From positions 1 to 47,947 of the forward strand of contig NZ_RDSD01000029.1 in NCBI RefSeq assembly GCF_003712195.1: DNA of 47,947 nucleotides, in the 5' to 3' direction. This document shows positions 1 to 44,310 of this stretch, one piece after another. Numbering within the stretch: the first letter of the stretch is position 1; the number at the start of each line of letters is the position of its first letter. This stretch comes from Proteiniphilum sp. X52 (GTDB lineage: Bacteria; Bacteroidota; Bacteroidia; Bacteroidales; Dysgonomonadaceae). The position numbers were made by a program, and so were the translations under genes. Under the pieces are notes generated by a model. The model had not been told where the DNA came from and made no database searches. It saw nothing but the letters and a program-made list of their open reading frames with translations.

Positions 1-1566
1 TCCCTTGTCGGAATATGAGATTTTAAAGGATGGAAAGATATTATGGTATTTCTTTTTCACATTATCTTCAACACTTGTCAGATCGTCATACATGGAAGAT
101 AACACCTCATACCGGAGTCCGGTATTCAGCGACAATTTGGTATTTGTCCAATTATATTCGGTAAATACGGCCCACTTTGTCTCCTTGCTTTTATAATTCA
201 AATATCCAACCAGAGCGGGTTCAGTCGTCATATCCCCTTCTCCGTTTATTCTGCTGACATCCGCTCCTGCAATAATAGCATGCTTCTCGGATGGATGATA
301 ATTTGCCGCATATCTGGCAGCATATATTGTATAACGCGACAAACTATTCATTTGGGTAAGCAGCTCATTGTTTTCAGTTTCCTCTTTCACATCCTGTTTG
401 AGGGTATTCTTATAAAAGACATAATCGGCATTCAATTCCGACGTCAGATGTTCATTCCATCTGGCATTATGGAAAGCATTCAGTTGCGAATTGTGAATGG
501 TACCTCCATAATCACTTGTCACAAAAAAATCCAGATATCTTTTTTGATTTGCATTTACGGTATTTACCTCCCTCGAATTATCATCTACATTGCTGTATTC
601 TTCATTGAGTTGCATCCCCACTATATGGTTGGGAGAAAACTCATAATCGACGTTCATGCGAAACGTATGGAACTTCTGAAATGGGTAACTTGTCCTATCG
701 GTCACGTATTGCCATAATGTGTCCGTCTGGATATCCTTTATCAGGTATTGGAAGGATTTATTTTTGTATCCAAAAAGGTTATAGTAAACCGATGTGTTCA
801 ATTTCTGTTTTTTATAGTCAATTTGTATATTTTCATAATGAGATGCTTTTTCGCTTTGTCTTAATGCGGAATTTACTTTAACGGCAATTCCTTCCTCCTT
901 TTCTAATGTGTAAATCCGGATAACAGCATTGACGCCGGCATCATATCGGGCACCGGGATTAGTAATCAATTCAATATTCCGGATGTTTTTCACATCAAGT
1001 TGCGAGACTTCATTCATGTTTTGTACTTTCCGGTTATTGATGTAAACAACCGGTTGACCGCTCCCGAACACCTCCAATGTGCCACGATTATTGATAATGC
1101 CGGGTATTTGGGCCAGGACATCATCCATTGAATGTTCCCTGCTTAACAACGTATTCTCCACTTCCGTCGTCAATATGCCGTTTTTGATATTGAAGACAGG
1201 CCGACTCGCAGTTATTGTGATCTCGTTCAATGCCTGACTTTCTTCTTCTAAAATAATGGCAGGCAACGTGATATTTCCTTCCCTGATCGTTATTTCTTGA
1301 TGATGTTTTTTATACCCTATAAAAGAAATTTGCAACAAATAACTCCCCGGAGTATGAATGGTCAGGCCGAATGAGCCGTCTTTCAAACTTGTTGTGCCAG
1401 TCACAAAAACGGTATCAGGCATACTGAAAAATACGATATTGGCAAATTCAACGGGTTCATTTTTATTATCCATAATCAGTCCATTTAGAACGGTTTGGGC
1501 TTCAATGGAAGAGAATAAGAACATAAATGTTATTATCGCAATTGATATTAAAGAAAAATTTCTCAT
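1..1566 (-). CDS. TonB-receptor-like outer-membrane beta-barrel protein, C-terminus beyond window
   Basis: From the ATG at 1566 the frame stays open for 522 codons to the window edge, so the C-terminal barrel is missing. A signal peptide (residues 1-23, ending SSIEAQ) is followed by a carboxypeptidase-regulatory-like beta sandwich (about 24-110). A plug-like region comes next (about 115-225, with IPGIINNRGTLEVFG, VVYINNRKVQ and NPGARYDAG), then long strands rich in aromatic residues. This is the architecture of the Bacteroidetes outer-membrane beta-barrel/TonB-receptor group. These proteins sit in the outer membrane; the ligand cannot be read from sequence. It lies 80 bp downstream of the radical SAM maturase on the same strand, so a role in moving or sensing the modified peptide is plausible but inferred. 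Confidence 0.85.
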   Translation of the reverse strand, partial: MRNFSLISIAIITFMFLFSSIEAQTVLNGLIMDNKNEPVEFANIVFFSMPDTVFVTGTTSLKDGSFGLTIHTPGSYLLQISFIGYKKHHQEITIREGNITLPAIILEEESQALNEITITASRPVFNIKNGILTTEVENTLLSREHSMDDVLAQIPGIINNRGTLEVFGSGQPVVYINNRKVQNMNEVSQLDVKNIRNIELITNPGARYDAGVNAVIRIYTLEKEEGIAVKVNSALRQSEKASHYENIQIDYKKQKLNTSVYYNLFGYKNKSFQYLIKDIQTDTLWQYVTDRTSYPFQKFHTFRMNVDYEFSPNHIVGMQLNEEYSNVDDNSREVNTVNANQKRYLDFFVTSDYGGTIHNSQLNAFHNARWNEHLTSELNADYVFYKNTLKQDVKEETENNELLTQMNSLSRYTIYAARYAANYHPSEKHAIIAGADVSRINGEGDMTTEPALVGYLNYKSKETKWAVFTEYNWTNTKLSLNTGLRYEVLSSMYDDLTSVEDNVKKKYHNIFPSFKISYSDKG

Positions 1567-1646
1567 TGTTTAATTCTTTTGTTCCAGAACTACCCTTATC
1601 AAAAAAGAGGGGGGCAATTGTAGAGATGAATTTCCATCCCAATATC

Positions 1647-2990
1647 TCAATCAATTTTCACTTCTCTGGTTTTGGACACTTTCGTATTTAATTGCTGCTC
1701 ATAAAACATATCGAAAAGAATATCTAAATTTTCAATATCGATAGGGCAAAGATCATAAGGAGCCTTATTCAATTTGAAATTTAACCGCCTTAGATTACAA
1801 CCACCATCGCAAACAGGAAATAGAAGGCATTTCAAACATTTAGGATCTGAATACATATCAGTTCCCAGTATATATTCTGTTAATAAAAAACTATTATATT
1901 TTCGGGTAAATATGTTTCCAATTCTGCGTTCTTTTTTACCTACATCGACCCAACATTTGTAGATATCCCCTTCAGGATCAATCACAAATGAATTTGAATA
2001 AGTTGCGGTACATCCTCCCAATTGAAATTTTGGATAAAGATTGAAGTTAGTAAAATTATAATTCTCAAATAATTTTTTCGCATAAAATATTTTATCTTTT
2101 TCATTAAAACATTCCACTCTACAACTATCGTTGTGTTTGTTGGCATATTTCATAACTAAATGATATTTCTGACCTTCCCACCGATTTTTAAGTTCTTCAT
2201 ATAATAAAGGAAAATCTTCTTCATTTTCAGCATGCACATTCATCCTAATTGTAATGGAGCATTGTGGGATATATTTAAAAACATTTTCAATATTATTTAG
2301 AATAACATCATAGGTTAGATATCCTGATTTATGGATACGGCTTTTATTGTGATTTTCCTTTAATCCATCTATTGTGATTTGGATTAAATTTAGATTATGA
2401 TCATTAAAAAATAAACACTTATCCTTATCTAATAAATAGCCATTTGTTACCAGCGCATGGCTTTTTAATTCTTTTTTTTCATTCTTTTCAATCTTAGTTA
2501 ATATCCTTTTTATATTATTGAATGCAATTAATGGCTCCCCTCCATGCCAACAAAGCTGGAGCTTTGAAGAAACCTCAAATGAATTGATAAAATCAATAAT
2601 CATGTCCTCTACATTTTCTTTCATAAAAATGTAGGGTAAACCTGCCTCATAACAGTATGGGCAATTAAAGTTACATGCATAAGTGGGTAATAAAACCAAA
2701 CTAAGAATTTTTTCTTGAAAACTTTTTTTATATTTAAGAAACTTTTTTTGAAGAATAAAATTTTCATCATCATAATCTTCTACAAAAATCTTGGCTTTTA
2801 TTAACTTGTCTAGAGTTTCCTCTTCCAAAACCCGAAAAATGGGTTCACTATCTTTTCCATTTTTTATCAGGCACAATTTCCTATAAACATCTATTGATAA
2901 AGATATTAGCACATTGGTTATAGAATTATAGAGTAAAAAACAATTATGTCTTTTTGATTCATATAAATAATTGTATCTTGACCACTTCAT
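1647..2990 (-). CDS. radical SAM/SPASM peptide maturase
   Basis: 447 residues. The radical SAM cluster motif CxxxCxxC is at C106, C110 and C113 (YACNFNCPYCYE), followed by a glycine-rich SAM-binding segment (WHGGEP). The C-terminal third has the SPASM cysteine pattern: a Cys in GGCTATYS, one in DIYKCWVD, then CLKCLLFPVCDGGC and a final CPID, which would hold auxiliary Fe-S clusters. Residues 1-90 (YNYLYESKRHNCFLLYNS onward) look like the N-terminal region seen in Bacteroidetes peptide-modifying rSAM proteins. SPASM enzymes commonly install crosslinks or other changes in ribosomal peptides. The nearest candidate substrate is the 60-residue peptide encoded 67 bp upstream. Sulfatase-maturase function is less likely, as no sulfatase is nearby. 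The gene is clearly AT-richer than its rightward neighbours. Confidence 0.9.
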   Translation of the reverse strand: MKWSRYNYLYESKRHNCFLLYNSITNVLISLSIDVYRKLCLIKNGKDSEPIFRVLEEETLDKLIKAKIFVEDYDDENFILQKKFLKYKKSFQEKILSLVLLPTYACNFNCPYCYEAGLPYIFMKENVEDMIIDFINSFEVSSKLQLCWHGGEPLIAFNNIKRILTKIEKNEKKELKSHALVTNGYLLDKDKCLFFNDHNLNLIQITIDGLKENHNKSRIHKSGYLTYDVILNNIENVFKYIPQCSITIRMNVHAENEEDFPLLYEELKNRWEGQKYHLVMKYANKHNDSCRVECFNEKDKIFYAKKLFENYNFTNFNLYPKFQLGGCTATYSNSFVIDPEGDIYKCWVDVGKKERRIGNIFTRKYNSFLLTEYILGTDMYSDPKCLKCLLFPVCDGGCNLRRLNFKLNKAPYDLCPIDIENLDILFDMFYEQQLNTKVSKTREVKID

Positions 2991-3020
2991 ATTTAATATA
3001 AATTTTAGGATTTTGAATAT

Positions 3021-3046
3021 GAAGCCGATCTGTTGTGATCGGCTTC
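3021..3046 (-). other. perfect 10-bp hairpin between peptide gene and maturase
   Basis: GAAGCCGATC at 3021-3030 pairs perfectly with GATCGGCTTC at 3037-3046 around a 6-base loop. It lies 11 bp after the peptide stop codon and 30 bp before the maturase start. No run of U follows in the direction of transcription. It could be an attenuator, a processing site or a 3' stabiliser that keeps peptide mRNA in excess over maturase mRNA. The role is inferred. Confidence 0.75.
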
Positions 3047-3057
3047 AAACTTGACTT

Positions 3058-3240
3058 TTAGAAGATACTAAAGGCTACTCCTGCGTTCAATGTAGGTTCT
3101 GTAGTACCATCAGTGCATCTATAAATAATTCCATCATTCTTACATTCGTCAGACACCTGATCATATTGCCCTCCAATGATTTTATCCATTTGTTCAGATA
3201 GAATGTCTTGGTTTTCTACTATAAAATCTAAAGTTTTCAT
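3058..3240 (-). CDS. small double-glycine-leader peptide, candidate RiPP precursor
   Basis: 60 residues. The N-terminal half (MKTLDFIVENQDILSEQ...) ends in LSEQMDKIIGG, close to the bacteriocin/ComC-type leader consensus with Gly-Gly at 23-24. The putative 36-residue core has Cys33 and Cys42, Thr/Asp-rich TDGTTEPT and a hydrophobic end (AGVAFSIF). It is the first gene of a leftward unit with the radical SAM maturase and the outer-membrane receptor. Known GG-leader precursors are cut after Gly-Gly by C39-type peptidases during export; no such exporter is in view, but the cluster runs off the left edge. No close family was recognised; assignment as substrate rests on size, leader and context. 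Confidence 0.75.
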   Translation of the reverse strand: MKTLDFIVENQDILSEQMDKIIGGQYDQVSDECKNDGIIYRCTDGTTEPTLNAGVAFSIF

Positions 3241-3909
3241 TTGTTTGTCTTTTTTATTGGCTCTTCTACATGTTTGGCTATTTGGAAGATTTACGATTAT
3301 GATTTACTAAAATTTCATCAGATAGCTATATCTCTATATGAAACACATCTATCGTGCATACCACAAACATCATAATTTTTGCCTGTTAGCTACTACTTTT
3401 CACTGTTTGGGCGGCTTCCGGCAAAATCAGTCATCCCCAAACCCGTGGGTGTTTGAAATTACCGTGTGTTGTGTTATCTTTGCAGTGCCTTTTCTTGTAA
3501 GTTTAGTTAAACATCAGGGTTGATTCGTCTCAATTTGGTTGTTTCGCTTTCCTGGCAAGGGAAGGCTTTTTAATGTCCGTACTTACGGTTTCTGAGGCCG
3601 CTGGGACAAATTACGCAATCCTGTTCCGACAGTTATCATAACGGTCAGACGTATTCCGGTCAAATCTCAAAATCGCCATACATGGCGCCGCACCCGTTGG
3701 TGAACGTGATAGTGTATATTCCCGACGACAATACGATTTTCTTCATTTTCATGATGGCACCTATTATGAAATTTCTGCCTCAAATCTAAATAATATATTT
3801 CTCTTGCGAAACAGGATATTGAGAGATACAAAAATTTAACTACAGCCATCGACATACCCCCCTGATAACCAAAGACACTTACCATAAGAATACAAGACGG
3901 CACAAAATT
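3241..3909. other. gene-free stretch with possible decayed coding sequence
   Basis: No intact gene is convincing here. A consensus promoter at 3452-3482 reads rightward into sequence with an ATG at 3573 whose frame stops after 23 codons. Pieces of other frames look protein-like (for example HDGTYYEIS around 3745-3775), which suggests a gene broken by frameshifts. I could not identify the ancestor. The short leftward frame at 3667-3903 shows no protein-like features. Confidence 0.4.
3452..3482 (+). promoter_or_regulatory. Bacteroidetes-type promoter, rightward
   Basis: TTTG at 3452-3455, a 19-base spacer and TATCTTTG at 3475-3482 match the Bacteroidetes sigma-ABfr consensus in both boxes. No intact gene lies downstream on this strand before the leftward regulator gene, so it either serves a decayed gene or an unrecognised RNA. 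Confidence 0.65.
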
Positions 3910-5592
3910 TTAACGAGTGAGGTTGAAGGTCAAGCAGGCTTTCCGCAACACGGAGCAGAAATCAACCCCTATCTTCTTATTGAGGTTGGTGCGGGCCTTG
4001 TAAACGGTATGTTCGCTCTGGTTGAGTGCAAAAGCGACTTCCTGTACGCTCAATCCAGCATACGAGAGGAGGCACACGTTATATTCGGTTTCCGAAAGCG
4101 TGGGGCAATGCTGTCTGATAAAAAGCCGTATTCCCGGATTAAGGTGTTCCACGGTTTGCCGTATATCCAGTCCGGGTGTTTTTATGCTTTTGGCGAATAG
4201 GATTTTATCCAGCCTGTCAATCAAAGGTTGATGGGTTTTCTGCTCCTTTTCGCTCATCCTGTATTTCAGTCGTACTGTTTTCTTCAACACATCCAACTTC
4301 CAATGCAACGCTTCTTCCAATGCCGTTTCACTCTCTTTCCCCGAGGACAAGAGGTCTCTCGTGGTTTTTCGCAACGTATTTACATTTTCCTGTATTCTCA
4401 GATTAGCCGCTTTTTCCCCCAACATCCGCCAGAAGAGAAACAAAAAGGCGATTGCCACGACCAGCAAAACACCCATCAACATCATCAGCAATTGCTGAAA
4501 ACGGATAAACCGTTGATTATAGTGGTTCTGCTGTTGCTCATAATTGTATTTTTGCTCTATTTCGTAAACCGACTGATTTTTCCGGTCGTCCATGATCCGG
4601 TTAAGGCTGTTTATCCGTTTATCTTGATAAGCGAACGCGTCATTGTCATGCCCCCTTGCTTTTTCCCACTCAGCCAAAAACCTGTAAGCGCTTGCCTTGA
4701 GGTAATTGTTATCCGTTGAGTCAATGCTGTCCTTTAATTTTCCGGTATAGAAGGCGGCCGAATCGGGCCGTTCCATTTGCGAATATAATGTTGCGAAATT
4801 CAAATAGTACCGGGTCTGATCCTTCTTATCCGGGTTATATTGGTAGGATTGAAGGAAATATCCTTCCGCCTCGGTAAATTGTCCTGTTTGCTGATAAGCC
4901 ACGCCAATATTTTGTGCCAATAAACTTTGCAATATTCCATCATTAGTCGACTTTGCGGAATTCAGTCCCTTTTGAAAATAAAAAAATGCGCTGTCGGGAT
5001 TTTTGTCCAGCAGGAACATCCGCCCCACAGCGCTTAAACTATAGGCTTCTTTCTCGGGATATGCATTGTAGAATCGGGCGGCCGCTTTATATCTCTCCAG
5101 CGCCTTGGTATACAAATCCTGCACCGCAAATAAATCCCCGAGATTATATTGTACCAACCCTTGCAAGGCGTAGTCGCCTGCTTCCGCGGCATAATCCCCG
5201 GCAGCCAGATAATGTTCCGTCGCTTTTTCGTATTCCTGCCGTTCACGGTGCACACAGCCGCTGTAGAACCAGGCCAAGGTAGTTGTATGGGAATCCTTAT
5301 TCCGGGCTGAGAAATGATCGCGCGCCAGAAAGATCAGCGTATCTTCGTGTATGGAACGCCGGGTTTTGTATTTCGCCTGCACCTGCGTTACCAGAAAATG
5401 CATATAATGTTCATGGCGGAGGCTTTTTTCCGGATAAAAAATGGAATCGATCAGCCGCATGGCGCTGTCGGGGTTGCTTTCCACAAGGCGTTGGGCCTCC
5501 ACCAGCAACCCGGGTGCTTCGGGCTGGGGCCTGCACGCCGCGAAGATGAACGCTCCGAGTGTGATTGCTATGGTATAAAATATCTCACGCAT
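3910..5592 (-). CDS. lipoprotein-anchored TPR protein with transmembrane helix and C-terminal HTH
   Basis: 560 residues. The N-terminus ends in a lipobox (IFAAC, Cys20). Residues about 35-330 are tetratricopeptide-like helices (YEKATEHYLAAGDY, YTKALERYKAAARFY, FTEAEGYFLQSY). A coiled region precedes one membrane helix (367-390), then a basic linker and a LuxR/ECF-region-4-like helix-turn-helix at about 500-541 (SVQEVAFALNQSEHTVYKAR). Similar TPR-TM-HTH proteins are common in Bacteroidales and are usually called putative transcriptional regulators. The layout puts a periplasmic sensor and a cytoplasmic DNA-binding end on one chain. It is 80 bp downstream of the FUSC gene, and a TATATTTG box and a palindrome precede it. 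Confidence 0.8.
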   Translation of the reverse strand: MREIFYTIAITLGAFIFAACRPQPEAPGLLVEAQRLVESNPDSAMRLIDSIFYPEKSLRHEHYMHFLVTQVQAKYKTRRSIHEDTLIFLARDHFSARNKDSHTTTLAWFYSGCVHRERQEYEKATEHYLAAGDYAAEAGDYALQGLVQYNLGDLFAVQDLYTKALERYKAAARFYNAYPEKEAYSLSAVGRMFLLDKNPDSAFFYFQKGLNSAKSTNDGILQSLLAQNIGVAYQQTGQFTEAEGYFLQSYQYNPDKKDQTRYYLNFATLYSQMERPDSAAFYTGKLKDSIDSTDNNYLKASAYRFLAEWEKARGHDNDAFAYQDKRINSLNRIMDDRKNQSVYEIEQKYNYEQQQNHYNQRFIRFQQLLMMLMGVLLVVAIAFLFLFWRMLGEKAANLRIQENVNTLRKTTRDLLSSGKESETALEEALHWKLDVLKKTVRLKYRMSEKEQKTHQPLIDRLDKILFAKSIKTPGLDIRQTVEHLNPGIRLFIRQHCPTLSETEYNVCLLSYAGLSVQEVAFALNQSEHTVYKARTNLNKKIGVDFCSVLRKACLTFNLTR

Positions 5593-5672: not shown

Positions 5673-7829
5673 CTACCGCCCCTGATACAGACCCACAATC
5701 CCTTTGGCCTCTGTCAGCAACTCGCGCGCAACATGTGCGATATTGTTGATAAGCCTTGCCCTGCGGTTTCCGGCATCGCCCATCATCTTGTCGATCTGTT
5801 CATCCCAACAGTTTGCTTTCCGGAAACTGTCCTCAATCTGCTTTTCATCGGCGTTGTTGGTTAACATCTCCGAAACCAGCCGGAGCACATCGCTCACGTC
5901 ACGGCAAAGGGCAAGTTCTGTTTCCGACAGGTCGCCGGCCGACTTATGGACACCGAAAGCGGAGATATAAGACAACAGGGCGTGGTTCAGGTTAGTGAGG
6001 TTAAAAGCCTTATCCTGGTACCGGCGCCTGCTCTTGGGTTCCAGCCTCATCCATTTCCAGGCCGAAGTCAAGGCGTTGTCGGCATTGTAAGCGGTACGAC
6101 GGTTGTGAAGATAATCCTCCTCGGAGACGGCACCGTCATAGATGCTCTCGAAATAACGCCTGTTTTTTGCCACCGCATTCAGCATCAACCCCGGGAGCTG
6201 CTTGTACTGCCAATCGGGCCAGATAAAGCGCACAGCCAGATAGGCGAGCGCGCCGCCCACCAACGTATCGATGACGCGGGGGATCATTACGGCTACTCCC
6301 TGGTTGGAAAGCAAATTGAAAGCTGCCAGCACGAAGATAGTGATAAAGACGACAGCGATCGTATAGTTTTTCTTCAGCCAGTAAAAGAAGAAGTAAATGG
6401 AGGTGAGCAGCAAGAGTGTCTGTCCGGGCGTGGTGGGCAGCAGTTGTGCCAGGGCGACCCCTCCAACGACCCCCAGCAAGGTGCCGAAGACGCGGTGAAA
6501 GAGCCGGATACGCGTGGCGCTATAGGTTTGCTGGACGACAATCAGCGATGTCATCAGTATCCACGAACCCTTCCCGAAATTCAAATAAAGCATGATCCCA
6601 TATCCCAGCATCCAACACAAGGTAAGCCTCACTGCAAAGCGAAAACGGGGATGAGCGGCATGCAACAGTGACTTCAAACCGGTTCTCTCCGGCTTCCGGG
6701 AATGAAAGACCGTCACATCTATCTGGTCGATAGTTTTTTCATTCTCCCGGAGATTTTCTTCCAATCCCGTCAGGTTTCTCAGCAGTAACGACAAAGTATG
6801 ATAATAGGGTTGGTCTTTCTCCGCATCGAGCATTGCCCGTAGCGCCGTTATCGTCCATTTCAACGAGAATGGATGCCTGTAAGGTCGTTCGGTCAGCAGC
6901 GAGTCGGCATAGAGGCGAACTGCCGCCGCAATCTCCCTCATCAGCTTTCCGAACCCTTCCAGCAAATCGCCGCTCTTCACCTGCCGCGACAACAAATCGT
7001 ACTGCTCATGGCTCGATATGGCCCTTTCCTGCATGGCCTGCAACAAAAACCATTGGCGATAGTAATGATCCACCACCGGAAGTGCTTCAGGAGTGCATTC
7101 TTCCGAGTAGCTGTAAAGGTCGTTCTTGCATGCTTCGATCTGTTGCGCCAGATTTGTGTTTTTTTGTGCCAGCTGGATCCTGATCCCTTTTTGGACGTGG
7201 GGATCGCTAGGGAATAAATTCGCCTTCAGGTCGATATATTCTGCCAGGAAGTGAAACCCGCGGGCAAGCTGTTGTTGCAATAGCCGATAAGGCCTGAAGT
7301 AAAGTAGCAGGATAGAGATCACGGCATAACAGAAGGCTCCAAGGGTGAAGAACAGGGGAAGATAATACCATTTTTCACTGTTTTCAGCCGCCAGCATGGA
7401 ATAGACCAAAATAAGCATTGTCCCGAAAGTGACGCCCTGCATCCGTGAGTCGACACCTCCCATCAAAAGGAGGGAAAAGGAGAGGAGCAGCAGCACAATG
7501 GCAAACCAGGCCGGTGAAGGGAGAAAGATAGCCACCAAGCTACTGGTGATTACGTAAAGTATAAGCGCCATGGCGGAAGATTTGACCCTTCCTTTCGGAT
7601 GCACGTCGGTCTCCCCCAACGCCATCGCCACCACTCCCAGCGCAAGGGTCGTCCCGAAAAAGGAGTGATGGAATATCAACTCGGCGGGGATCAGCAGGAA
7701 GGCAATGGATACGGTCACCTTCAACGCCCACAAATGATCGGGGCTTTTCCAGAACACATTGATCCAGAGGTCGGCTATCCTATCTTTTATCGATTCTACT
7801 CCATTACTCATCTCTTTATCTTTTGACAT
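5673..7829 (-). CDS. FUSC/YccS-family inner-membrane protein
   Basis: About 718 residues from the ATG at 7829; the frame also extends to a TTG at 7850, which is less likely, and a further ATG lies at 7811. Two blocks of hydrophobic helices (about residues 28-185 and 388-525) alternate with two cytoplasmic helical regions, as in the YccS/YhfK/FUSC group. The second block contains the typical SWILMTSLIVVQQTYSATR stretch, followed by RLFHRVFGTLLGVVGG. Members resemble aromatic-acid efflux proteins; the substrate here is unknown. It follows the DUF5686 outer-membrane gene on the same strand, with a heptamer/octamer repeat tract between the two. Confidence 0.88.
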   Translation of the reverse strand: MSKDKEMSNGVESIKDRIADLWINVFWKSPDHLWALKVTVSIAFLLIPAELIFHHSFFGTTLALGVVAMALGETDVHPKGRVKSSAMALILYVITSSLVAIFLPSPAWFAIVLLLLSFSLLLMGGVDSRMQGVTFGTMLILVYSMLAAENSEKWYYLPLFFTLGAFCYAVISILLLYFRPYRLLQQQLARGFHFLAEYIDLKANLFPSDPHVQKGIRIQLAQKNTNLAQQIEACKNDLYSYSEECTPEALPVVDHYYRQWFLLQAMQERAISSHEQYDLLSRQVKSGDLLEGFGKLMREIAAAVRLYADSLLTERPYRHPFSLKWTITALRAMLDAEKDQPYYHTLSLLLRNLTGLEENLRENEKTIDQIDVTVFHSRKPERTGLKSLLHAAHPRFRFAVRLTLCWMLGYGIMLYLNFGKGSWILMTSLIVVQQTYSATRIRLFHRVFGTLLGVVGGVALAQLLPTTPGQTLLLLTSIYFFFYWLKKNYTIAVVFITIFVLAAFNLLSNQGVAVMIPRVIDTLVGGALAYLAVRFIWPDWQYKQLPGLMLNAVAKNRRYFESIYDGAVSEEDYLHNRRTAYNADNALTSAWKWMRLEPKSRRRYQDKAFNLTNLNHALLSYISAFGVHKSAGDLSETELALCRDVSDVLRLVSEMLTNNADEKQIEDSFRKANCWDEQIDKMMGDAGNRRARLINNIAHVARELLTEAKGIVGLYQGR

Positions 7830-7841
7830 ATCTGTGCAGGA

Positions 7842-7947
7842 AATTACCAATTACCAATTACCAATTACCAATTGCCAATTGCCAATTAATTGGTACACCA
7901 AACATCATCCAATCATCCAATCATCCAATCATCCAATCATCCAATCA
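7842..7947. repeat. two adjacent short tandem-repeat tracts (7-bp and 8-bp units)
   Basis: 7842-7883 is four AATTACC followed by two AATTGCC units plus a partial one. 7903-7947 is five copies of an 8-bp ATCCAATC-type unit that runs into the stop codon of the upstream gene. On the sense strand of the FUSC gene the first tract reads GGTAATT/GGCAATT, and it ends just before that gene's start region. Confidence 0.95.
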
Positions 7948-9546
7948 GAACGTCACGTCTACCCTAAAAGCACCGAGAAGGGCGTCGGGATGATCCCGAT
8001 AGGTGAAACGATGCACATACTCCACACGCAAAAGCCCGAGAATATGGGTGATACCGATGGTTCCCTCCACATAAGGAACATTGTCGTATCGATGTAAAAG
8101 GGGTGGAAAGTGATACAGTCCATCCGAAGAAACCGCCGGATTGTTCTTATCACTGAGCCGGCCATGGGCGACCCTCAATGAGGCCAGCTCCCTTAATTGC
8201 AACATGTCCGCGACAGGCATTTTTGCCAACAGGAGGTCATCTCCCACGAAAGTCATCCGCAGGGTGTATTGCTCGTCGGCCACAAACTCCAATGCCCGAT
8301 TCAGGAAAAAGGAGTTATTCTCAATCTGATGGCGGTAGCGTTGATTGGGATACACCAGTAATGGAAAAGGCACTTTATCCCACACCTTCATTACCTCGCC
8401 TACCACATCCAAACGGCCGGCACTCCCCAACAAAAAACGCTTCTGGACTGAAAACTCAGACCTGTGATAGGCTACTTCACCGCCTATGAAGCCATTCACT
8501 CCCATCGTATGGGAAAGAAAAAAGACCGGAGAAGTCATCTCCAACGGTATTCTTTTCCGTTTCCGCTGATGATAGGCCTCTCTCACCGAGTAACGTAACA
8601 GCACACCCACATCGGTAGTATGTAATTCACCTTTCGTGACGGCTATCCCCTCCTCAAGATCCGGCTCGAACTGCAACTCTCCCTGGGGAACCAACCGTGA
8701 CCGTCTCACCCGCAAGGTGTGTGCCAGTCCGTTTTTATACTCTTTCTCATAAGTGAGCTCCGCAAAATTCCGATAGGTCGCTTCGTTCTTCGAACGCCGG
8801 TAAGTGACCAGCAGCAGGTCGTTCAGGGCATAGGGATGCATTTCGCCCGGAGAATAGAGATCGTTTTCATAGACCCATCTCAGTGTATTTTTCGGGAACT
8901 CATCCTCATGATAGGCTTTTTTGTTGAATGAGTAGATGGCCTCACCGCGGTATTTGAATCGCTGGTCTTTAAATCCGTAGGCGGCGTATCCCCTCACAAA
9001 AAAATGGGGGCTCAACCTCGAATTAGAGGCAATGCCCGCCCTGAGCCGGATTCCTTCAACAGGGTTATAAGTGGGGATAGTCTGGATCCGTCCAAAGTCG
9101 AACCGGTTGGTTAGCGGATCCCCGAGCGGAATCCAGTCGTTGGTCACGAGCTTTACCGCTTCGGCCAGAAACGCGCCGAAGGCTCCCGAATTCACGGCTA
9201 TACTTTCTTGTAATGCAAGAACTCTGTCCACAGGATCGTCCGGTTCCAGCGCCACGACCAGTCTCTCCGTCTCATGTTCATCCAAAGAAAAGGACATCAG
9301 TTGGAAGCCCTCTCTCGCGACCATCAGTGCCTTGTCGGGAATTGAATCGGGAACGGAAAGCGAAAATTCCCCTGTGTTATCGGCTACGGTTCCGATAGCG
9401 GTTCCCCGGATAAAGAGTGCCGCGTAAGGTACCGGAGTGTGATACTTTGCATCCATCACCACTCCTTTGAGTAGCGTGTTTTGCGCAAACACCGGAACAC
9501 CGGCACTCACCAAAAACAGTAAAAACAGTATTGAAGTTTTTCTCAT
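7945..9546 (-). CDS. DUF5686-like outer-membrane protein with carboxypeptidase-regulatory-like domain
   Basis: 533 residues from the ATG at 9546 (an upstream TTG at 9567 is in frame). A signal peptide ends at VPVFAQ, followed by a regulatory-like beta sandwich (about 25-105; GVVMDAKYHTPVPYAALF, GTVADNTGEFSLSVPD). The C-terminal part carries DUF5686 hallmarks such as VEGIRLRAGIASNSRLSPHF, FVRGYAAYGFKDQRFKYRGE and a final barrel strand VEYVHRF...FRVDVTF. Most family members are longer (about 800 residues); this one has a shortened middle. Function is unknown; an outer-membrane beta-barrel is expected. Confidence 0.82.
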   Translation of the reverse strand: MRKTSILFLLFLVSAGVPVFAQNTLLKGVVMDAKYHTPVPYAALFIRGTAIGTVADNTGEFSLSVPDSIPDKALMVAREGFQLMSFSLDEHETERLVVALEPDDPVDRVLALQESIAVNSGAFGAFLAEAVKLVTNDWIPLGDPLTNRFDFGRIQTIPTYNPVEGIRLRAGIASNSRLSPHFFVRGYAAYGFKDQRFKYRGEAIYSFNKKAYHEDEFPKNTLRWVYENDLYSPGEMHPYALNDLLLVTYRRSKNEATYRNFAELTYEKEYKNGLAHTLRVRRSRLVPQGELQFEPDLEEGIAVTKGELHTTDVGVLLRYSVREAYHQRKRKRIPLEMTSPVFFLSHTMGVNGFIGGEVAYHRSEFSVQKRFLLGSAGRLDVVGEVMKVWDKVPFPLLVYPNQRYRHQIENNSFFLNRALEFVADEQYTLRMTFVGDDLLLAKMPVADMLQLRELASLRVAHGRLSDKNNPAVSSDGLYHFPPLLHRYDNVPYVEGTIGITHILGLLRVEYVHRFTYRDHPDALLGAFRVDVTF

Positions 9547-9583
9547 CTTCTCCGGTTTGAAAATCAAGAACCTACATCAGTAC

Positions 9584-9630
9584 ACCTTTCCATTCTGGCA
9601 CCTTTCCACCTTTCCACTTTTCCACTTTCT
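9584..9630. repeat. pyrimidine-rich 8-bp tandem repeats
   Basis: Imperfect copies of CACCTTTC/CACTTTTC fill the gap between the ettA stop codon and the start of the DUF5686 gene. Confidence 0.8.
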
Positions 9631-9631
9631 A

Positions 9632-11311
<1,680 letters not shown>

Positions 11312-11319
11312 ATTTTTTT

Positions 11320-11423
11320 AATTACAAATTACTAATGATCAATTACCAATTACCAATTACCAATTACTAATGACCAATGACTAATGACTAATGACCAATG
11401 ACCAATGACCAATGACCAATGAC
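11320..11423. repeat. heptamer tandem repeats before ettA
   Basis: AATTACC, AATTACT, AATGACC and AATGACT units of 7 bp run head to tail for about 100 bp. On the ettA sense strand they read GGTAATT and GGTCATT, the same orientation as the tracts before the FUSC, 2-hydroxyacid dehydrogenase and M49 genes. Confidence 0.95.
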
Positions 11424-30828: not shown

Positions 30829-31060
30829 ATTACGAATTACAAATTACAAATTACGAATTACGAATTACGAATTACAAATTACAAATTACAAATTACAAAT
30901 TACAAATTACAAATTACAAATTACAAATTACAAATTACAAATTACAAATTACAAATTACAAATTACAAATTACAAATTACAAATTACGAATTACGAATTA
31001 CGAATTATCAATTACAAATTATCAATTACAAATTATCAACTACAAATTATCAATTGTCAA
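30829..31060. repeat. long heptamer tandem-repeat tract
   Basis: About 25 head-to-tail units of ACAAATT/ACGAATT up to about 31006, then a looser AATTATCAATTAC pattern. On the sense strand of the dehydrogenase gene the unit reads GTAATTT. It fills the space between the tRNA-Asn terminator and the dehydrogenase start. Confidence 0.97.
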
Positions 31061-31075
31061 TCAATTAATTATAAC

Positions 31076-39671: not shown

Positions 39672-39758
39672 TCCTGCAGGAAATGATCAATACGATGAGG
39701 GTGCATCACTTATCTGGTTCCACCCTCATTTCACTCCTCACCTTGCCAACTTTCCCAC

Positions 39759-39850
39759 ACCCAACACCCAACATCCAACATCCAACATCCAACATCCAAC
39801 ATCCAACGCCCAACATCCAACGCCCAACATCCAACGCCCAACATCCAACA
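39759..39850. repeat. heptamer tandem repeats abutting the folC start
   Basis: About 13 units of CCAACAT (variants CCAACAC, CCAACGC). The last partial unit, CCAACA, is directly followed by the folC ATG at 39851. Confidence 0.95.

Positions 39851-43996: not shown

Positions 43997-44310
<314 letters not shown>

Follow-up and report, generated by a model that had tools for sequence, protein, structure and literature searches.

A radical SAM/SPASM peptide-maturation cassette of Proteiniphilum sp. X52 as a probable member of an exporter-anchored cassette array

The DNA analysed here (the window; 47,947 nt) is the whole of contig NZ_RDSD01000029.1 (C28) of Proteiniphilum sp. X52 (G000; 4.43 Mb, 96 contigs, 99.97% complete), and it begins with genes for an outer-membrane barrel, a radical SAM (rSAM)/SPASM maturase and a peptide with a double-glycine (GG) leader. 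Our analysis indicates that these genes are probably one cassette (pepA-rSAM-A-OMP-A) of an array of cassettes for ribosomally synthesized and post-translationally modified peptides (RiPPs), which would be anchored on a C39 exporter and exchanged or stacked by recombination. Repeats, exporter stubs, different cargo at a conserved site and recurrence in other genera were observed directly. A cassette would consist of a GG-leader precursor with its own rSAM/SPASM maturase and its own barrel, placed between a repeat (R) upstream and the start of the exporter gene downstream. An initial annotation of the window had noted a 60-aa peptide with a leader ending in LSEQMDKIIGG and two Cys in its core, a SPASM enzyme and a TonB-receptor-like protein, all in one direction, and we confirmed the three open reading frames (ORFs) on the minus strand: pepA (3058-3240, 60 aa, with both Cys in a 36-residue core), rSAM-A (1647-2990, 447 aa, an ORF with Pfam and NCBIfam matches) and OMP-A (1-1566). 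The present part of OMP-A, its N-terminal 522 aa, contains CarboxypepD_reg domains and a partial TonB-receptor barrel (Pfam). Its frame is open at base 1, the end of C28, and the contig break falls inside the array, within OMP-A.

Relatives of the maturase within the same genome were found on contigs C45, C52 and C32, adjoining GG peptides and/or barrels; a further relative on C55 was 24.6% identical, and no cassette genes were detected there. The left end of C28 and the right end of C52 share their last 77 bases, with a mismatch at base 78. The same was observed for the right ends of C32 and C45, and the left 77-mer of C45 was found inside C32. We read these shared 77-mers as an assembler with k=77 breaking at collapsed repeats. 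In the coding direction, C28 carries a tetratricopeptide repeat (TPR) protein gene, the R leader and cassette A, which runs to the contig end, and C45 carries pepB-rSAM-B-OMP-B, an exporter stub and R. The first part of C32 contains pepC-rSAM-C-OMP-C and 60 nt of exporter sequence, then the C-terminal fragment of an rSAM, a barrel and a stub, and the remainder contains R with an intact DUF3244 gene, pepD-rSAM-D-OMP-D, the full exporter, a 163-aa protein, EamA and TsaD. On C52 we detected a barrel without its N-terminus and an intact maturase, together with a fragment from the interior of the exporter and 231 bp that copy part of OMP-A at 98% identity; no peptide was seen. The locus has three complete cassettes (B, C and D), cassette A, which is complete in its visible part, and two decayed units (that on C52 and one on C32). 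Between A and D, the contigs do not fix the relative order of the C45 and C52 pieces.

The initial annotation had proposed looking for a C39 exporter, and one exists on another contig of the same locus: the exporter of cassette D on C32 (C39, 732 aa) is the sole intact exporter seen in the locus. With a GG leader and a C39 exporter, the latter placed here by synteny, the locus has what is expected for a peptide exported by a peptidase-containing ATP-binding transporter (PCAT). The 163-aa protein after the exporter had no Pfam or NCBIfam match. Small proteins of 153-218 aa in this position (L043 4670-5161 and homologues) have an N-terminus which we take to be like that of HlyD-type fusion proteins, and are possible reduced membrane fusion proteins. 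The annotation had treated the genes as a single plain undescribed RiPP operon cut by the contig end. Related operons do exist as single units (G449), but the other contigs, the identical contig-end 77-mers, the stubs and the synteny place cassette A in an array, and we consider the single-operon explanation highly improbable.

Two barrels of the locus are followed by an exporter-start stub of about 52 codons fused to R, and a third by only 60 nt of exporter. The stub matches the exporter for about 157 nt (52 codons), after which the sequence changes abruptly to R and identity falls to background; the stubs would hold too little of the C39 domain for peptidase activity. The five intact maturases of the locus are 16-33% identical to each other, while the R copies are 93-95% identical and the stub regions of C45 and C32 are 92% identical. 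We compared the histories of maturases, barrels and exporters by pairwise identities, and single cassettes were nearer to other taxa than to their neighbours (C52 and G049, 82%; D and G011, 43%; A and G448, 58%). Both this pattern and the contrast between maturases and flanks argue against tandem duplication and divergence of one RiPP operon with neither import nor exchange. The tandem layout, and the junction between exporter interior and TPR gene end, would fit an initial tandem duplication, but as an account of the whole locus we regard this explanation as unlikely.

The reading of the locus as an exchangeable array draws on the orthologous site in related species. Four congeners share the site: three carry one different cassette each (G021, G011 and G020), and in G007 the locus has decayed. 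The locus exporter is present there with 93% amino acid identity in G021, 92% in G011 and 90% in G020, and as a C-terminal remnant only in G007; of the 39 genomes in the genus, only 9 gave a DNA match to the exporter, some of the matches being short or distant. One contig joins both flanks in G021, G011 and G007, with the cassette or its remains between them. The left flank consists of the 559-, ~540- and ~720-aa proteins, as on C28, and the right flank of the exporter or its remnant, a ~160-aa protein and EamA, as on C32. Since the flanks seen on C28 and C32 lie on one contig in these congeners, the C28 and C32 pieces agree with one locus. The cargo of G020 best matches cassette B (maturase 39%, barrel 62%) and that of G011 cassette D (maturase 43%, barrel 27%); the G021 maturase is 35% identical to the C52 maturase, and the G021 barrel gives only a weak match (20% over part). 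When identity to G000 was calculated per 50 nt in five species, a step was observed at the exporter ATG, with 42-72% upstream and 84-94% in the first 50 nt downstream; later exporter blocks showed 60-98%.

Other features were observed at these sites. Downstream of the precursor in G020 (L045 5081-7873), the frame of a group II intron reverse transcriptase/maturase continues in frame into the maturase gene. Upstream of the variable cassette (L101 9680-9874, L103 10210-10404, L105 11726-11884, L053 4943-5098 and L129 17074-17304) there is a second GG-leader peptide, whose core is YIDGxPYxV-like and which is a candidate signal peptide. In G021 and G011 (two loci) it lies next to a histidine kinase/response regulator pair; such a pair is located at the upstream array end in G042, and none was seen in the G049 stretch.

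The exporter stubs are not restricted to Proteiniphilum sp. X52. With the first 80 residues of the exporter as the query, matches were obtained in 49 of the 101 genomes of the family, and stubs were counted in 12 fetched stretches and the loci already inspected, edge cases being left out. The count reached 13 internal stubs, distributed over 8 genomes and 6 genera: three each in G000 and G042, two in G135 and one each in G047, G060, G131, G019 and G049. The weakest contexts were those of G019 (a barrel match with a distant C39 match nearby) and G060 (a short match beside GG peptides). Left out were short exporter copies that run to a contig end (G047 C320 and G021 C7) or lie at or near an edge (two in G053, and G048 C38), a match that is not a gene start (G048 C4), an interrupted, nearly full exporter (G057) and a frame of ~250 aa (G050), as well as the listed matches in G021 C15, G115, G013, G109, G102 (two), G007 C90 and G055. 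The cleanest case is an unbroken array on one contig of another genus (G042 C4) with three stubs. Its order is two-component genes, barrel, stub, barrel, stub, a second GG peptide and a partial R match, followed by precursor, rSAM/SPASM, barrel, full exporter, small protein, R, a GLPGLI protein, barrel and stub. Two of its stubs (83 codons) have a common junction that differs from the G000 junction, and stubs must therefore have arisen at least twice. The contiguous arrays of G042 C4 and G135 C131 also argue against an assembly artefact, which we rejected. The cargo is not always rSAM, as GLPGLI proteins and barrels occur in the same frame. In G060 (L170 330-5476) an exporter-start stub is preceded by four GG peptides whose leaders closely resemble one another and whose Cys-containing cores differ.

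From these arrangements we propose a model in which a piece made of R, cargo and exporter start would recombine at R or at the exporter start by homologous recombination. A crossover at the exporter start would bring new cargo beside the intact exporter and leave the older cargo upstream with a stub, and the reverse crossover would excise a cassette. The maturase would introduce crosslinks, probably thioethers, at the core Cys, as its family and the Cys content suggest. The exporter and its 163-aa partner would cleave at GG and export the products, the matched barrel would serve in passage across, or protection at, the outer membrane, and the product would act between cells, most likely in competition.

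It is also quite possible, at somewhat less than an even chance, that each intact cassette is expressed from its own R leader, with the exporter shared in trans, in which case the stubs are inert scars, no switching takes place and the array widens the peptide repertoire. As this would require, intact precursor and maturase ORFs are present in all four cassettes (A-D) and intact barrels in B, C and D, and G135 contains tandem R-GG peptide-GLPGLI units. The C52 unit, which is old, points in the same direction: compared with a unit of another genus (G049) its maturase is 82% and its barrel 72% identical, and the ratio of nonsynonymous to synonymous substitution rates (dN/dS) is 0.04 for the maturase and 0.10 for the barrel, with dS near saturation. 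The decayed units do not fit, C52 being without a barrel N-terminus or a seen peptide and one C32 unit having only an rSAM fragment; nor do the four congeners that are unstacked at the site, three with one cassette and one with remnants. As a separate observation, the exporter of the G049 unit is interrupted (L053 9822-11650; residues 1-561 and 682-731 matched), and that unit may be inactive.

Several points weigh against the proposed exchange of cassettes. The upstream cassettes have their own starts and leaders and may be expressed, not silent, with an exporter acting in trans; two more full-length C39 exporters in the genome (C18 and C19, 45% and 53% identical to the locus exporter) could serve in this way. 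Passive duplication followed by divergence could leave such repeats too. The dS between stub and full exporter was 0.34-0.54 (over only 52 codons), and between species it was 0.54-0.61; this divergence points to units that are old or were imported, not to recent local copies, and gives no sign of present switching. The array appears split over four contigs, its links seem to lie in collapsed repeats, and the C-terminus of OMP-A would lie beyond the contig end. An AlphaFold model of the maturase from a two-row alignment reached a predicted local distance difference test score (pLDDT) of 37 and was discarded, and the maturases miss the cut-offs of named families, which means that the crosslink type cannot be assigned from family. 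We nevertheless hold to exchange or stacking of cassettes as the likely reading.

The assignment of rSAM-A to the RiPP maturases was examined with family models. It matched Pfam Radical_SAM with 63.8 bits and the SPASM domain model TIGR04085 with 55.3 bits (cut-off 27). The CX3CX2C motif (C106/C110/C113) is invariant across 10 related maturases, and of seven Cys in the SPASM region (327, 346, 385, 388, 394, 398 and 415) five are present in 10/10 of them, one in 9/10 and one in 8/10; rSAM-A thus has the motif and the Cys set of an rSAM/SPASM RiPP maturase. It stayed below the cut-offs of the named equivalogs (Clo7bot 182.6/600, TIGR04463 172.6/525, CefB 171.7/600 and PapB 130.9/340 bits), and none of the maturase families listed (best 25 of 50) reached its cut-off. 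By these scores rSAM-A resembles peptide maturases (the Clo7bot, TIGR04463 and CefB models, 172-183 bits). A sulfatase-activating enzyme, which the initial annotation had named as the identity that would speak against it, was rejected: the score with the sulfatase maturase model TIGR03942 was 91.7 bits, against a cut-off of 349.45. The sole solved sequence that matched rSAM-A at E ≤ 0.001 was PDB 5wgg/5why ('Radical SAM domain protein'; E 5e-21), presumably CteB; the similarity is low, and substrate and crosslink may not carry over. Matches of the maturase to PADLOC pVip (53 bits) and to a PHROGs radical SAM family (113 bits) were read as the general rSAM fold. At E 1e-20 the maturase matched 14 plasmid records (10 listed) and 2 phage records, all at <60% identity; carriage of rSAM-A itself on a plasmid or phage was rejected, the listed matches being only 24-35% identical. 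A scan of a genome-contig collection returned a distant relative in Elusimicrobia as the only one.

The GG-leader motif alone occurs at chance level, with 2 matches among the 144 small ORFs of the window and 0-3 in 30 three-mer-block shuffles. We consider pepA credible because related peptides adjoin related maturases in G360 and G449 and GG peptides occupy the same place in the other cassettes. In a search of 393 genomes of the order, 18 (including the focal one) had a maturase match at E ≤ 1e-40. The best full-length relatives of rSAM-A, 47% identical in G360 and 45% in G449, belong to two other families. Directly upstream of them lie three (G360) and two (G449) GG peptides that align with pepA at 28-41% identity, with GG and one core Cys among the invariant residues. 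Both loci continue with a barrel and a C39 exporter (complete in G449, cut by the stretch in G360) and have a TPR-like protein upstream; the G449 operon consists of TPR, 2 peptides, rSAM, OMP (outer-membrane protein), exporter and a 153-aa protein. The concern expressed in the initial annotation that homologous pairs of peptide and maturase might be missing from other genomes is answered by these two pairs, which also give rSAM-A the conserved adjacent precursor of an rSAM/SPASM RiPP maturase, and on sequence grounds the pairing is supported. Among 14 loci inspected, 3 had no upstream GG peptide on the maturase strand; a fourth (L192) shows no upstream sequence, and the peptide listed for L204 is not leader-like. 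In G448, of another family, an A-like maturase (58% identical over the visible part) and barrel (43%) are followed by an exporter stub of 23 codons and two barrels, the first of them 64% identical to the G021 barrel; an exporter start then runs to the contig end. In G431 (L195 1154-1396, match orientation) a small ORF with many Cys-Gly-Gly-like repeats adjoins an rSAM homologue. The annotation had recognized no known precursor family. Against the precursor family TIGR04149 (cut-off 25), pepA scored 13.5 bits, cassettes B and C gave 21.4 and 15.0 bits, and D no match. The cores seen in the cassettes contain Cys, consistent with a probable thioether class (ranthipeptide/sactipeptide).

The R leader of cassette A (3296-3922, minus strand) is the repeat that is 93-95% identical to the leader of cassette D on C32, and its 5' part (3728-3922) is 93% identical to the stretch after the exporter stub on C45. 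R opens with 13 nt that are the last codons and the stop of the TPR gene; the array-internal copies of R therefore derive from a position beside a TPR gene, a position that the window copy still holds. A small DUF3244 gene, intact (134 aa) in the cassette D copy of R, persists in R of cassette A as a remnant (3660-3752, minus strand). The best-conserved part comprises a promoter-like element, ~80 nt and a hairpin with a T run. The element, TTTG-N19-TATCTTTG (3452-3482, plus strand), which we take to be the Bacteroidetes promoter consensus, points away from the cassette. A putative structured RNA of ~80 nt (3483-3571, plus strand), divergent from the cassette, ends in the hairpin and T run. The consensus fold over 11 copies has 22 pairs, of which 5 show a two-sided change kept in at least one copy, and its covariation term is small (-0.83); the fold of window 3489-3576 gave a z of -3.3. 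A covariance model detected 14 sites in 8 of the 101 family genomes, 11 of them its own seeds. All but one of the sites are located upstream of, and divergent from, cassette genes (13/14), the exception being the G053 copy (L131 6185-6269), near which no cassette genes were recognized. At the sites in G037 and two in G023 the adjoining cassette genes are GLPGLI and a barrel, with no GG peptide seen. Rfam gave no match for window 2900-4000 up to E 1. When the leader RNA was paired with 15 gene starts of the locus, the strongest interaction (-37.8 kcal/mol) did not reach the 5% tail (-43.5) obtained with 500 random 100-mers from the window. We tentatively entertain, and rather doubt, a dedicated RiPP switching locus in bacteria of this order, in which tandem stored cassettes would be moved to the intact exporter by recombination at the exporter start and the repeated leader RNA would coordinate use of the units. 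Such a locus would store and switch modified peptides much as mating-type or Rhs cassettes do. An invertible promoter in R was rejected, a simple inverton not being supported: around the promoter the window copy has no inverted pair of ≥10 nt, and the cassette D copy has one 16-nt 81% pair, 451 nt apart, that was not seen in the window copy.

Beside the cassette, the window encodes the TPR protein (3910-5592, minus strand, 560 aa), which has a marginal match to a LuxR-type helix-turn-helix and is probably the locus regulator; a homologue (49% identical) occupies the same site in G020. The conserved left flank (5673-11311, minus strand; 725-, 540- and 559-aa proteins) lies outside the cassette and anchors the orthologous site; we take the 559-aa protein to be EttA-like. 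Heptamer tandem repeats (AATTACC, ATTACAA, TCCAACA, AGTTCTA and similar) were seen at 7842-7888, 11320-11423, 30829-31061, 39753-39850 and 43998-44310.

If cassettes are exchanged as proposed, the array would allow RiPP chemistry to be reshuffled genetically among related species: the export machinery and the chromosomal flanks would stay, and precursor, maturase and outer-membrane protein would change together. A barrel that changes in step with its precursor would be a testable candidate for an export port or an immunity/receptor factor. Exporter stubs offer a simple signature for hidden RiPP arrays, at whose repeats short-read assemblies tend to break. We found no earlier description of exporter-stub cassette arrays in the open-licence PMC literature.

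The initial annotation had called the locus an undescribed RiPP locus. The RiPP type stands, and 'undescribed' applies only in part: RiPP clusters of Bacteroidales with GG precursors, rSAM, a C39 exporter, OMP and sometimes a TPR protein have been described as rSAM/PCAT clusters, several with no membrane fusion protein identified (PMC10352776). The present locus shares with them the GG precursor, the rSAM maturase, the C39 exporter, the OMP and the TPR protein. As far as the available text of that paper goes, it describes single clusters, and the array, the exporter stub and the leader RNA were not seen there; the terms 'recombination', 'truncated', 'duplicat', 'variab' and 'horizontal' are absent from its main text. 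The operon type is thus known in Bacteroidales, and the multi-cassette context looks new. TIGR04149 (GG_sam_targ_CFB) precursors likewise combine a GG leader with a neighbouring rSAM, pepA, pepB and pepC being under the cut-off and pepD without a match, and in the portion of the literature available they are called sactipeptide-like in Bacteroides (PMC4573289). From the accessible parts of a study of Rhs orphan toxin modules, recombination brings a stored unit into the expressed position (PMC3967940). As there, one complete main gene is accompanied by extra units homologous to part of it, and the extra units share a segment with the main locus, here through the exporter-start stubs. The orphan described there is a fragment without translation initiation and export signals, whereas the cassettes here resemble full operons and have in common with the main locus the start of the exporter, on the downstream side. 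Stored units without start signals of their own, as in Rhs- and contact-dependent inhibition (CDI)-type systems, were not found: in B and C, precursor, maturase and barrel are each encoded by a complete ORF that has a start codon. In the pneumococcal blp locus, as outlined in the sections available, conserved transporter and regulatory genes (a two-component system and a pheromone) stand beside a variable Bacteriocin Immunity Region (PMC6422914). Similarly, the loci of G011, G021, G042 and G135 include, besides a histidine kinase/response regulator pair, a second GG peptide; unlike in blp, the peptides here would be modified, with their own maturase and barrel, and displaced units keep exporter stubs.

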